Assembly (NCBI GenBank): GCA_963169235.1
Contig: CAUJCX010000001.1
Location: 1 to 42,299 of the forward strand
Source of the DNA: Actinomycetota bacterium
GTDB lineage: Bacteria; Actinomycetota; Thermoleophilia; Miltoncostaeales; Miltoncostaeaceae
Length of the DNA: 42,299 nt
Direction of reading: 5' to 3'
The notes under the pieces were generated by a model. That model was given only the letters and a program-made list of their open reading frames with translations, was not told the origin of the DNA and did not search any database. Each line of letters opens with the position of its first letter. Position 1 is the first letter of the stretch. Made by a program: the position numbers and the translations under genes. Positions 37,986 through 41,981 of this stretch are shown here, piece by piece.

Positions 37986-40900
37986 GTGCAGGACCGCTGG
38001 CCCATCGTTGCGACCAAGACCCGGATCCCCGGGCGCCCCACGCTGTGCGTCGACCGGCCCCGGGTGACCGCCCTGCTCAACGAGAACGCGCAGCGGTACC
38101 CGGTGATCACCGTCGTGGGGCCGCCCGGGTACGGCAAGACCACGGCCGTCGTCGCGTTCGCCCACCAGCGGCCGGGGCGCTGCGCGTGGCTCACCCTGGG
38201 TGAGAACGACACCACGGCGGGGCGCCTGGTGATGTACCTCGCGGCGGCGGTGGCCCCCCTCGACGCCGGCCTCAGCGCCCGCGTGTCGGGGTTCCTGTCC
38301 GACGGCCTGCCCCCCACCGATTGCGCGTCACTCCTGGCGGAGGGGCTTCCGCCGGGCAGCGTCCTCGTCCTCGACGACGTGCACGCCGTCGAGATCCGGG
38401 CCCCCGCCATCCGCATCCTTCATCGGCTCGTCGACGATCTCGCCGTCGGCTCGACGCTGGTGGTCATCAGCCGCCGGCTGATCCACCTTGACCTCACCAA
38501 GGCGGTCATCGCGGGCCGGGTGGGCCGCATCGACGAGCGTGACCTCGCCCTCGACGCCGCCGAGGTCGCAGAGGTGCTGCGTGCGCGTGGGCTCGACGCC
38601 GATCCGCTCGCGGTGATGGCGGCGTCGGGAGGCTGGGCGGCCGGCGTGGTGTCGGAGGCGATGGGCACGGGCCGGTACCCGCCCGACGCCAGCGCCGAGG
38701 ACCCGTTCTTCGCGTACCTCGGCTCCGAGGTGCTGAGCGGCATCGAGGCGCCGCTGCGCGATGCCGTGGTGTCGAGCGCGGTGCTCGACGTGGTGACCGC
38801 CCCGGGCGTCGCCGCCGTGGAGGGACTCGACGCGCGGGCCGCCCAGCGGGCCTTCGGGCGCATCGTGTCGCACCACCTGCCGGGTGTGCGCGAGGCCGAC
38901 GGGTTCCGCTACCACCCGCGCTTCCGGGAGTTCCTCCTGTCGCTGCTGGACGGGGACGATCCGGGCCGGGCGGCACGCGTGCGGGCGCGCTGCGCCCGCG
39001 CCCTCGCCGACGATGGGCACGTGGAGGAGGCCGTCGACCAGTTCCTGGCGGCCGGCCACGGGGACGAGGCCGTCCCGGCGCTGCTGCGGGCGGCGCCCAC
39101 CCTGATGCGGCGCGGCGACTGGGACAAGCTCCTGGCCTGGCTGGATGCCGTGGGGGAGACGCGCATCACGGGCGCCAGCGCGTTGCGCGGCGTCCAGATC
39201 CGGGCCCTGATGATGAGCCGGCGCCAGCAGGACGTGCCTCCCCTGGTGCAGCGGATGCGCGCCAGCGGCGAGTTCGACGCGCACCTCCGCGACGACCCCG
39301 ACGTCGCGGCCTGGGCGGTGTGGGCCCTGCACGGTGCCGGTGGCCTGCCGGAACTGCTCGGCATCGCCCCGGACGCGACCTCGTCGCGCAGGTGCCAGGC
39401 GGTGCGCTACATCCTGGAGACCCTCGCGGGGGACTCGCCGCCCCGGCCGTGGCCCGACGGCGCGTTCGACCGGGTGCAGCCGCTCCACGTCGCGCTGCAG
39501 TCGGCGGTGTACTACCGGGGGCGCTTCGCCGAGGTGGAGCAGCTCGCCGCCGCGGCGGCCACGCGGGGACCGGTCACCGCCGTGCTGGCGCGCATCTACC
39601 GCGTCGCCGCGCTCACGTTCGCGGGTGACCTCATCGAGGCCAGGCGCGAGCTCGACGCGGCCACCCCGCGCATCCGGGAGTCACGGTTCATCGAGTTCTG
39701 GCAGCAGGTCAGCGCCGAGCTGGCGTTCGAGGAGGGCGACCGGGACGCGGGGCTGCAGCTGATGCGGGACGCCCGCGCCACGTCGCGCGACCACGGCTAC
39801 CGCCTCACCGACCGCGGCGCGTTCCCCACCCTCGAGGGCAAGATGCTCGTGCGCATGGGGCGCAGCCCCGAGGCGTCGGAGGTGCTGGAGGCGGCCCGCT
39901 GGTGGTGCGCCCACCACGGGGCGCGCTGCTTCGGGGAGTGGGCTGACACGTGGTACGCGGCGGCGCTCCTGGACCTGGGCGAGGACGCGCACCGGGCCGG
40001 CGCCCTGCTGCGCGGCGCCGTCGCCTCGATGCGCGCCGCGGACCGCGTGCTGGAGCTGGTCCCGGCGCTCGTGCTCGAGGCGGAGGCGGCCTGGCGCACG
40101 GGGGACGAGGACCGCCACGACGCGGCGATGGACGACGCGTACGCCGCATCGCTGCGGCTGGGCACGCTGGTGCCGATGATCCGCACGCTCGCGCTGGTGC
40201 CGGACACGCTCGCCCGCCGCCTCGATGCGGCCACGGGCGACTCCGCCGCGCGCTGGCGGGCGGTGGCGCAGGCGCGCACCGGGCCGGGGGAGGGGGGGTC
40301 TTCGGGAACCCGGGTGCTCACCATCCGGACGATGGGCGCGGCGGTCGTGGTGGCGCCCGGAGGCGCGCAGCTGGCCGTGCCGGCGCGCGGCGTCGAGCTC
40401 GCCGCCATCCTCGCGCGTGCGGGGCCCGAGGGTGCCGAGCGCGGCGCGGTGATCGATGCCCTGGTGCGGTCCAGCGCCGACGGTGCGGCGTACCTGCGCC
40501 AGATCCTCAGCCGCCTCAGGCGAGCCCTGCCGGCCGGCGTCGATGTCGTATCGCAGGACGGGCGCCTGGCGTGGCGGCCTGCGGACGCGGTGGTCACCGA
40601 CGACCAGACGCTCGAGTCGCTCGTGACCGGGGCCCGCCGCAAGACCGGTGCCGTGCGCCGCGAGATGCTCGAGGGAGCCCTGGCGATCGCCGACGGCGGG
40701 GACTACATGCCGGGGGGAGACGCCCCGGACACCGTCGCGCGCCGGGCGGACGTCGTGCGGTACGTCGTCGAGGCCCGTCGCGCCCTGGGGCACCTGCAGC
40801 TGGCCCGTGGATGGGCCAACGATGCGGAGCACCACGCGCGGCTGGCGGTGGCCGGCGAGCCGTACGACGAGGACGGCTGGCGCCTGCTGATGCGCGCGAC

Positions 40901-41024
40901 GGCCGCGGCGCGCGGACCGTCGGCCGTGCCCCAGATCCTGCGCGAATGCGAGGGCAGGCTCGCCGAGATCGGGTTGCGGCCGTCGGCGGAGACGGTGCGG
41001 CTGGGCGAGCGCCTGCGGGGCTGA
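37986..41024 (+). CDS. Large STAND ATPase transcriptional regulator with C-terminal winged-helix/BTAD module
   Basis: A 1012-residue putative signal-integrating regulator. The N-terminal MalT-like STAND NTPase (about 1-330) starts WPIVATKTRIPGRP and has Walker A GPPGYGKTT (45-53) and Walker B VLVLDDVHAV (Asp130/131). A long alpha-helical TPR-like middle follows (about 350-750). After a Gly/Ser linker, a winged-helix-like segment begins near 776 (RVLTIRTMGAAVVVAPGG, AYLRQILSRLRRALPAG), and a BTAD-type TPR domain runs from about 850 to the end (AEHHARLAVAGEPYDEDGWR, LRECEGRLAEIGLRPSAET). This equals the LuxR/MalT architecture but with an AfsR/OmpR-type DNA-binding end instead of a C-terminal LuxR HTH. 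The ligand is unknown. The acetoacetate-decarboxylase-family gene 89 bases downstream is an obvious candidate target. Confidence 0.85.
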   Translation: MQDRWPIVATKTRIPGRPTLCVDRPRVTALLNENAQRYPVITVVGPPGYGKTTAVVAFAHQRPGRCAWLTLGENDTTAGRLVMYLAAAVAPLDAGLSARVSGFLSDGLPPTDCASLLAEGLPPGSVLVLDDVHAVEIRAPAIRILHRLVDDLAVGSTLVVISRRLIHLDLTKAVIAGRVGRIDERDLALDAAEVAEVLRARGLDADPLAVMAASGGWAAGVVSEAMGTGRYPPDASAEDPFFAYLGSEVLSGIEAPLRDAVVSSAVLDVVTAPGVAAVEGLDARAAQRAFGRIVSHHLPGVREADGFRYHPRFREFLLSLLDGDDPGRAARVRARCARALADDGHVEEAVDQFLAAGHGDEAVPALLRAAPTLMRRGDWDKLLAWLDAVGETRITGASALRGVQIRALMMSRRQQDVPPLVQRMRASGEFDAHLRDDPDVAAWAVWALHGAGGLPELLGIAPDATSSRRCQAVRYILETLAGDSPPRPWPDGAFDRVQPLHVALQSAVYYRGRFAEVEQLAAAAATRGPVTAVLARIYRVAALTFAGDLIEARRELDAATPRIRESRFIEFWQQVSAELAFEEGDRDAGLQLMRDARATSRDHGYRLTDRGAFPTLEGKMLVRMGRSPEASEVLEAARWWCAHHGARCFGEWADTWYAAALLDLGEDAHRAGALLRGAVASMRAADRVLELVPALVLEAEAAWRTGDEDRHDAAMDDAYAASLRLGTLVPMIRTLALVPDTLARRLDAATGDSAARWRAVAQARTGPGEGGSSGTRVLTIRTMGAAVVVAPGGAQLAVPARGVELAAILARAGPEGAERGAVIDALVRSSADGAAYLRQILSRLRRALPAGVDVVSQDGRLAWRPADAVVTDDQTLESLVTGARRKTGAVRREMLEGALAIADGGDYMPGGDAPDTVARRADVVRYVVEARRALGHLQLARGWANDAEHHARLAVAGEPYDEDGWRLLMRATAAARGPSAVPQILRECEGRLAEIGLRPSAETVRLGERLRG

Positions 41025-41032
41025 GGCGGCCC

Positions 41033-41070
41033 TGTCACGGGCGTGTCACGGCGACCGGCCTAGCGTGACA
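41033..41070 (+). promoter_or_regulatory. Promoter with TGTCACGG direct repeats before the ADC-family gene
   Basis: TGTCACGG occurs at 41033-41040 and at 41044-41051, an 11-base period (one helical turn). An inverted half GTGACA lies at 41065-41070, overlapping the end of the -10 candidate TAGCGT (41061-41066). A transcript from about 41073 would have a leader of about 40 bases with GAGGAG (41104-41109) before ATG 41114. The repeats sit where an activator would bind. Confidence 0.5.
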
Positions 41071-41113
41071 TCACCACCGCGGCGCCCGCCGCCGCCGAAC
41101 CCAGAGGAGTCCC

Positions 41114-41932
41114 ATGCCCGGTATCGAAGGTCGCCTCCGGCCCGATCAGTTCGGTTTCTCCATGCCGCCCGGCGACCCCCCGTTCGACAAGCCGCCGTAC
41201 TACTACCGCGGCATCGAGATGATGGCGTTCGCGTACGAGACCGACGATGACGCCGCCGCGGCGATCGTGCCGGAGGGGCTCGTCATCGCCCACTCGCCCG
41301 CCATCGCCCAGCTCATCTTCACCAACTTCCACTTCTCGACGCTGGGTGCGTACACCGAGGCCATCCTCGGCGTCAGCTGCCTGTGGGAGGGCGAGCCGGT
41401 CACGTACTGCACCAACCTGCTGGTCACCAACGAGGTCGGCCTCATCGGCGGACGCGAGCCCTACGGCTTCCCGAAGCTGTTCGGTGAGGTGGAGTGGGTC
41501 AAGGAGCACGAGATCATCTCGGCGTACGCCGAGCGGCCCAAGGGCAAGCGCATCTGCACCGGCGTCATGCGCCCGCGCGACATCCTCGCGCCCGACGACG
41601 TGGTCACGCCGCCGCTCGTGACGCTGAAGATCATCCCCAGCCCGGAGGAGAACGCCCCGCCCGAGGTGTGCGAGCTGGTGCGCACGCCCTTGGAGTTCGA
41701 GTTGATCGTCGGATCGGACGGGCGCGGCGAGGGCTTCGCCGGCCCCGGCAACGTCACGTTCGACTCCCCGTCCGCCGTCGACCCGTGGCACCGGATGCCG
41801 GTGCGGCGCATGGTCGCCAGCAGCTGGGGGCGCTACAACTTCGTGCTCCCGTACGGCGAGGTCATCAAGCGCTACGACGTCACCGAGACCGCCCAGCCGG
41901 TCGAGCCGCCTCCGGTCGCCGCCCAGGCGTGA
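41114..41932 (+). CDS. Acetoacetate decarboxylase-family protein
   Basis: A 272-residue member of the ADC superfamily. Characterised ADC converts acetoacetate to acetone and CO2 through a Schiff-base lysine. Here GREPYGFPKLFGEVEW places that lysine at Lys121. The neighbouring lysine that lowers its pKa in the clostridial enzyme (Lys116 there) is replaced by Leu122. That makes simple acetoacetate decarboxylation uncertain and fits the broader ADC-like group, which includes aldolase/dehydratase-type enzymes. Other family features: YYYRGIEMMAFAYETD, VTYCTNLLVTNEVGLIGG and PVRRMVASSWGRYNFVLPYG. GAGGAG precedes the ATG. It is monocistronic, between the regulator gene and a strong hairpin. Confidence 0.88.
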   Translation: MPGIEGRLRPDQFGFSMPPGDPPFDKPPYYYRGIEMMAFAYETDDDAAAAIVPEGLVIAHSPAIAQLIFTNFHFSTLGAYTEAILGVSCLWEGEPVTYCTNLLVTNEVGLIGGREPYGFPKLFGEVEWVKEHEIISAYAERPKGKRICTGVMRPRDILAPDDVVTPPLVTLKIIPSPEENAPPEVCELVRTPLEFELIVGSDGRGEGFAGPGNVTFDSPSAVDPWHRMPVRRMVASSWGRYNFVLPYGEVIKRYDVTETAQPVEPPPVAAQA

Positions 41933-41937
41933 CCCCC

Positions 41938-41981
41938 CGCTGTGCGGCTCCCGGTGCGCTGGCGCCGGGAGCCGCACAGCG
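41938..41981 (+). terminator. Long hairpin terminator after the ADC-family gene
   Basis: A perfect 17-bp stem: GCTGTGCGGCTCCCGG (41939-41954) with CCGGGAGCCGCACAGC (41965-41980), extended by a C-G pair at 41938/41981, and a 10-base loop. It begins six bases after the stop codon. No T-run follows. This is the longest perfect inverted repeat noticed in the window. Confidence 0.75.

Follow-up and report, generated by a model that had tools for sequence, protein, structure and literature searches.

A conserved direct-repeat box before an ADC-family gene as the probable target of an adjacent regulator with a MalT-like part and a SARP domain

Introduction

Between the end of a regulator gene (41024) and the start of an ADC-family gene (41114), the stretch of DNA analysed here (42,299 nt in length and referred to as the window) carries two exact copies of the 8-mer TGTCACGG at 41033-41040 and 41044-41051, confirming the 11-base period that had been noted in an earlier reading made from the letters of the sequence (the sequence-only reading). 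This arrangement raises the question of whether the repeats form a binding site, which protein would read them, and what their occupation would mean for the gene behind them. To our knowledge, the targets of the group of regulators to which the upstream gene belongs were not previously known. The features of the locus are compiled in Table 1.

Table 1. Features of the regulator-ADC locus, in coordinates of the window
Feature	Position	Strand	Basis or remark
Predicted regulator gene (product of 1012 aa with a MalT-like STAND ATPase part, a helical part and a SARP domain at the C-terminus)	37986..41024	+	Pfam, NCBIfam, full-length AF2 model
Predicted MalT-like nucleotide-binding part, residues 8-423	38007..39254	+	NCBIfam NF003420; Foldseek 8bob_C
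Predicted SARP domain, residues 774-1012: winged helix, then BTA domain (BTAD ~40620-41018)	40305..41021	+	AF2, AfsR fold match, Pfam BTAD
Upstream direct repeat, 11-mer TGTCACGGGCG (first 8 bases TGTCACGG)	41033..41043	+	Bases 2, 5, 6 and 7 of the 8-mer identical in 4/4 ADC promoters
Downstream direct repeat, 11-mer TGTCACGGCGA (first 8 bases TGTCACGG)	41044..41054	+	Bases 3, 5, 6 and 7 of the 8-mer identical in 4/4 ADC promoters
Gap of 6 nt separating the 22-bp box from the -10 element	41055..41060	+	Equal length in 4/4 ADC promoters
-10 element TAGCGT	41061..41066	+	Identical and equally spaced in 4/4 ADC promoters; without a -35
Likely ribosome-binding site AGAGGAG	41103..41109	+	Sequence only
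ADC-family gene (acetoacetate decarboxylase-like), proposed target	41114..41932	+	Pfam PF06314, E 1.9e-47
20-bp hairpin just after the ADC stop	41938..41981	+	-49.2 kcal/mol, z -6.68; perfect, no T run

Results

Repeats and promoter elements before the ADC-family gene

Within the window the pattern TGTCACGG N3 TGTCACGG had this pair as its sole exact match, and single copies of TGTCACGG occurred at the expected frequency (three observed, shuffle mean 2.96). Taken alone, the exact pair is mildly unusual and of little weight, because shuffles of the leader reach it: of 5000 shuffles of the 150 nt leading up to the ADC start, 30 (0.6%) produced an exact 8-mer repeat with a period of 11, and 218 (4.4%) one with a period of 10-12 or 21-23. 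These frequencies lend something to the view that the repeats are a product of chance in a GC-rich leader and were kept by shared ancestry only, a view on which the comparison of relatives presented below bears directly.

Upstream of TAGCGT a -35 element was sought at spacers of 15-19, and each of the eight sites studied had at most two of six matches to TTGACA; likewise, a consensus scan returned no sigma-70 pair at the ADC promoter. One way to account for a promoter of this kind would be an ECF-type sigma factor using TGTCAC as its -35, since in ECF41 promoters a -35 resembling TGTCAC precedes the -10 by about 16 nt. Here, however, the distance from TGTCACG to CGTG is 13 nt for the downstream and 24 nt for the upstream copy, the half-sites of the relatives read GTAAC or TTAAC, and a single sigma site leaves two repeats unexplained. 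An ECF41-type promoter was rejected on the two spacings, and the chance that an ECF-type sigma factor reads this promoter appears vanishingly small. The box also overlaps the place of a -35 and the spacer, as would suit a neighbouring regulator that binds it and represses by covering the promoter, but there is no -35 at any of the eight sites to be repressed, the regulator carries a BTA activation domain, and in the case of AfsR the same placement activates (excerpts of PMC10936776), which together make repression highly unlikely.

Downstream of the ADC-family gene, the hairpin listed in Table 1 may mark the end of its transcript; a terminator scan by a method that needs a T run returned none at this gene end.

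Conservation among the ADC promoters of the family

The comparison covered 42 genomes of the family, with G000 as the window's own genome, and a search at the level of the order returned the same number. A close ADC gene was found in four of the 42 (G000, G016, G025 and G012), in each of which a related regulator lies directly upstream of it. All four ADC promoters have in common a pair of repeats, 11 bp apart, that share NACG, and in all four the distance from the third base of the second repeat to an invariant TAGCGT is exactly 15 nt. When the promoters were anchored on TAGCGT, their mean pairwise identity was 69% in the upstream and 73% in the downstream 8-mer, 67% in the three bases between the 8-mers and 100% in the -10 element, compared with 40% over the 32 bases that precede the box, 43% over the 9 bases that separate the second 8-mer from the -10 and 35% over the 20 bases that follow the -10. 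Between columns -32 and +10, G2, A5, C6 and G7 of the upstream 8-mer and T3, A5, C6 and G7 of the downstream 8-mer are invariant, as are TAGCGT itself and three single C positions, of which one lies between the repeats and one each before and after the -10; counted over both half-sites of the four promoters, T3 is present in seven of eight and A5, C6 and G7 in all eight. From the -10 element to the start codon the distance varies between 34 and 47 nt, and therefore the box and the -10 are kept as one block while the distance of this block to the gene is not.

When the full composite drawn from G000 was sought in the leaders of the relatives, 0, 0 and 1 of 5000 shuffles did as well for G016, G025 and G012, respectively; for the repeats without the rest of the composite the corresponding numbers were 1, 22 and 1457. 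The repeats of G012, which taken alone match at 10 of 16 positions, are thus non-significant, and it is the full composite that stands out. Loss of the repeats in relatives that keep both genes, which the sequence-only reading had named as the outcome that would speak against it, was not observed, as half-sites, 11-bp period and distance to the -10 are retained in all four genomes. Its expectation of conserved repeats upstream of orthologous gene pairs held in that two half-sites are present in every case, and was borne out less fully in that G025 and G012 have a weak upstream half-site. Flanks that have drifted to 35-43% identity while the half-site cores and the -10 stay, together with a full composite that shuffles so rarely reach, render chance repeats kept by shared ancestry extremely unlikely.

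An inverted GTGACA, which occupies 41065-41070 and shares the last bases of TAGCGT, had been counted as part of the array in the sequence-only reading. The element is present, but it is conserved in only two of the four ADC promoters, the bases after TAGC being GTGAC in G000 and G016, GTCCC in G025 and GTCGC in G012, and it was rejected as a part of the operator. Of the operator-like array proposed earlier, the repeats are retained and the inverted element is not, and the geometry indicates an activator box that replaces a -35.

The more distant ADC genes of G364 and G221, with 36-40% identity, lie in loci that had no site by the composite rule, and an ADC homologue on a Variovorax plasmid (57% identical) has neighbours that differ from those in the window.

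Occurrence of the site across genomes

In the genome of G000 (2.94 Mb, 96% complete) the strict composite GTNACG N5 GTNACG N10 TANNNT had one match, the ADC promoter. With at most one mismatch allowed, the ADC promoter was the single genome-wide match in G000, G016 and G012 and one of three matches in G025, and over the 42 genomes there were 12 matches against 16 for the reversed control, which amounts to no overall enrichment. The case for the composite rests on position, in that the ADC promoter is found in all four ADC genomes, and not on the total count. For the bare repeat TGTCACGG N3 TGTCACGG with up to three mismatches, G000 had 41 matches where the reversed control had 15 (18 against 15 in G016, 29 against 22 in G025 and 22 against 11 in G012). 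A wide regulon was nevertheless rejected, since in G000 the stricter composite with its -10 finds the ADC site only.

The composite rule was also applied to 13 regulator-bearing loci (204,883 bases), where it gave eight matches: the four ADC sites from which the rule was drawn, one before the G025 regulator, and three at the targets of two paralogous groups, b and c, described below. Three other loci (39,003 bases) gave none, a control of 57 other loci (191,626 bases) gave one, and a Markov simulation of the rule gave a mean of 0.2 and a largest value of 3 matches in 40 runs. Sorted by repeat spacing from 7 to 45, rule matches fell at 11 (five), 32 (two) and 33 (one), with one each at 30, 39, 42 and 45; sorted by the gap to the -10 (gaps of 8-29, at spacings of 11, 22, 32 and 33), they fell only at 14 (four) and 15 (four). 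The match before the G025 regulator is a candidate autoregulation site (L056:6222-6260; CGCAACGG ccc GGTAACGC, 8 nt, TATCGT). A site of this type precedes only one of the four regulators, and its pattern had 6 matches in the 42 genomes against 14 for the reversed control.

A different repeat, mostly of the CTCACG type and with an 11-bp period, was seen 14 nt before TANNNT at three places in G025 and at one place each in G015 and G001 (around position 1501 of L118, L119, L121, L122 and L123), and probably belongs to another OmpR-fold regulator. A pattern that catches these sites had no match in G000.

Could such a protein, for example a response regulator of the PhoB/PhoP type, bind the repeats in the window and leave the SARP protein a bystander? 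Response regulators of this kind favour 11-bp repeats in general, and the CTCACG-type repeats of G025, G015 and G001, with their similar distance to TANNNT, suggest that other proteins may read similar sites; moreover, PhoP sites overlap those of AfsR in Streptomyces (excerpts of PMC10936776 and PMC10972967). Unlike what a global regulon would leave, however, the strict composite is single-copy in G000 and the pattern for the CTCACG type is absent there. The sites recur near three groups of the regulators studied here and rarely elsewhere, and the ADC gene and a SARP regulator occur together in all four genomes. Binding by another OmpR-fold protein is therefore considered unlikely.

Domain organization of the adjacent regulator

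In the regulator upstream of the box, the Pfam BTAD family was above its cut-off at residues 882-1011, AAA_22 and AAA_16 were below theirs near the N-terminus, and Trans_reg_C had no match in the window protein and a weak one in the regulator of G050. The NCBIfam MalT model NF003420 matched residues 8-423 with an E value of 1.5e-23 and 82.8 bits against a cut-off of 537, a score that leaves the protein outside the MalT equivalog. The full-length AF2 model (pLDDT 85.7, pTM 0.64) has a helical part at 311-764 and a poorly ordered linker at 765-775. In a Foldseek search this model had as its best match 8bob chain C (E 4.7e-13, TM 0.80 by target, with the aligned range not printed), an entry whose title refers to negative regulation of the maltose system and whose chain C we take to be MalT; AfsR stood lower in the list (TM 0.76 by target, ranges again not printed). 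The SARP domain modelled on its own (residues 774-1012) reached a pLDDT of 95.2, and its best PDB match was AfsR 8k60_J (Z 20.2, rmsd 2.5 A over 233 residues), with EmbR (2fez) at Z 18.4. In line with these results, a profile of the C-terminal domains of 13 regulators matched AfsR over positions 5-236 of 243 (E 7.4e-11), and in the window regulator an OmpR-type winged helix is directly followed by a BTA domain, the arrangement that defines the SARP family. The earlier assignment as a BTAD/winged-helix regulator of the SARP/AfsR type is thus upheld, by profile and by fold, for the C-terminus. Because of the profile and fold matches to MalT in the N-terminal and to AfsR in the C-terminal part, the protein is, as modelled, a MalT-like ATPase with a SARP output domain.

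A P-loop, GPPGYGKT, lies at residues 45-52, of which G48, G50, K51 and T52 are invariant in nine regulators. Together with the MalT fold match and the helical part of the model, it provides the P-loop NOD and the sensor repeats expected of a STAND ATPase, and nucleotide binding is predicted. The AfsR contact residues R87, T88, R92 and R94 align with R, Q, R and R of the window group; among the 13 regulators, the residues at the R87, T88 and R94 positions do not vary, and the one at the R92 position is nearly invariant. By analogy with AfsR, the Gln at the T88 position may face the invariant A5 of each repeat, which makes it an appealing candidate for base reading.

Compared with the window's regulator, that of G016 is 52% identical over its length, and those of G012 and G025 are 55% and 53% identical over residues 7-766 and about 46-48% in the C-terminal part; between G012 and G025 the identity is 64-70%. 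The ADC copies of the three relatives are 92-95% identical to that of the window. Rates along the locus are very unequal, the ADC proteins being 93-96% identical in the three pairs compared and the adjoining regulators 46-56% (window against relatives). The ADC-linked regulators of G012 and G025 are each divided over two frames, with the break in the linker that precedes the SARP domain (L055:8075-8282 and L056:8572-8598); the frame shift differs between the two genomes, and the linker that is split corresponds to the poorly ordered residues 765-775 of the window model. Between G012 and G025, dN/dS was about 0.34 in one half of the regulator and about 0.43 in the other, values that do not choose among gene fission, frameshifting, early or recent decay and sequencing error, any of which may underlie the split. 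The coincidence of a split regulator with weaker repeats, seen in two genomes of one genus, would fit relaxed selection.

Paralogous regulators and their putative sites

By neighbourhood and likeness the regulators were sorted into group a (before ADC; n=4), group b (n=4), group c (n=4) and a distant one in G050. In a tree of the SARP domains, group b is set apart from the rest by a single branch and so is group c, and group a forms one clade in only 4% of bootstrap trees. An alpha/beta-hydrolase gene accompanies all four group-b regulators, adjoining them in G013, G015 and G006 and standing about 0.8 kb off in G000, and all four hydrolase leaders (L058:12342-12450, L032:1166-1260, L060:11188-11280 and L061:1-92) contain two TAACG copies 32-33 bp apart. 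The pair is followed after 14 nt by TANNNT in the hydrolase leaders of G000 and G013; the hydrolase promoters of G015 and G006 have no TANNNT at the expected place. Beside the group-c regulator of G025, a LysR-type gene is preceded by a TAACG pair 32 bp apart and 14 nt before TAGCGT (L059:11437-11560), which raises the possibility of a regulator cascade. The other three of the four group-c regulators, in G006, G019 and G022, had no site by the rule, the G022 locus being short (5.7 kb). TAACG-type repeats with an 11-bp period were seen about 2.6 kb downstream of the group-c regulators of G019 and G022 (L065:3339-3370 and L063:500-540), where the usual place has no -10.

Searched over the 42 genomes, TAACG N27-28 TAACG N9 TANNNT had three matches, namely the hydrolase leaders of G000 and G013 and the LysR leader of G025, each less than 2 kb from a group-b or group-c regulator, and the reversed control had none. 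The support from the paralogues is partly post hoc, because the spacing of 32-33 bp was noticed by looking before the genome-wide test was made and lies outside the quoted SARP rule of 11 or 22.

Discussion

A dedicated activator-target pair is the best reading of this locus. We consider it very likely that the repeats are a SARP-type activator box, and this assessment draws on the sequence and its conservation, the spacing, the missing -35, the predicted SARP fold and the recurrence near paralogous regulators, all of which were observed or computed. Each of the two 11-bp repeats would hold a SARP domain of the adjacent regulator, the two domains being neighbours in the place of a -35, and the pair would bring RNA polymerase to the TAGCGT -10 and thereby turn on the ADC-family gene. 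An Arg would read T3 and a Gln A5 of each repeat, and the MalT-like ATPase together with the helical part may gate activation by an inducer and ATP. The regulator-target pair that had been called plausible in the sequence-only reading is supported by the conserved spacing in all four promoters and by the SARP domain, with binding by the regulator predicted.

Beyond this locus, we favour the view, with less assurance, that MalT-type STAND regulators with a SARP output form a small family in which each paralogue serves mainly a nearby gene. Its members would share a T-N-A-C-G half-site code, with an Arg that is conserved and a Gln that is invariant to read it, in repeats that stand one helical turn (ADC) or three turns (hydrolase and LysR) apart. 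This provides a testable site code for the regulator group, and it suggests that an operator may be predicted from the domain class of its regulator and the comparison of a few genomes.

Comparison with known systems

According to the excerpts of PMC10936776, the repeats of a SARP promoter are spaced by 11 or 22 bp, the -10 being 8 bp away from the last of them. In the afs box there are two 11-bp repeats at -40 to -19, with the first 8 bases of each contacted, and AfsR contacts base 3 of the repeat by R92 and base 5 by T88; from the coordinates in the same excerpts we infer -12 as the first position of the -10 hexamer of afsS. The present promoters follow this scheme with a period of 11 in G000 and all three orthologous promoters (the upstream repeat being weak in two), with a distance from the 3' repeat to TAGCGT of 9 nt from the 8-mer or 6 nt from the 11-mer, a figure that depends on the limits set for the repeat, and with the poor or absent -35 of all eight sites. 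Hence the order of two 11-bp repeats, 6 nt, a -10 and a poor -35 is the same as at the afs box of the afsS promoter of Streptomyces coelicolor (8k60, 8hvr), as far as that is described in these excerpts, and so is the 15-nt distance that separates the -10 from base 3 of the downstream repeat (-27 to -12, taking -12 as above). The proteins likewise share the SARP fold (Z 20.2) and the aligned arginines of the recognition helix. In contrast, the repeat sequence differs (TGTCACGG here), the T88 position is an invariant Gln, the ATPase is N-terminal and the SARP domain C-terminal, in reverse order to AfsR, and the target is an ADC-family enzyme gene. Large Streptomyces SARPs carry the SARP domain at the N-terminus and NB-ARC/NOD and TPR parts at the C-terminus (excerpts of PMC10972967), and the window protein, with the MalT-like part at 8-423 and the SARP domain at 774-1012, falls outside that definition.

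With MalT the window protein shares the N-terminal part, by profile (8-423) and by fold (TM 0.80 by target), and the C-terminal position of the DNA-binding domain. It differs in its output, which is a SARP domain here and a LuxR-type helix-turn-helix in MalT, and its 82.8 bits are far under the MalT cut-off of 537. EmbR (2fez) has the same winged helix and BTA fold (Z 18.4) but a C-terminal FHA domain (excerpts of PMC10936776), in place of which the window protein carries a STAND part at its N-terminus. The PHO box of PhoP, as presented in the excerpts cited, resembles the site in its 11-bp direct repeats, whereas here there is no wide regulon and one strict composite site in the genome.

Among the literature matches listed, none had a C-terminal SARP domain on a MalT-like protein, a result that does not establish its absence from print. 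The kind of site is a known one, and what appears to be new is the MalT-SARP order of domains, the half-site code and the enzyme target. The geometry of SARP activation, known from antibiotic regulation in Streptomyces, would extend to enzyme genes and to a further lineage of actinobacteria, with the sensing part at the opposite end of the protein.
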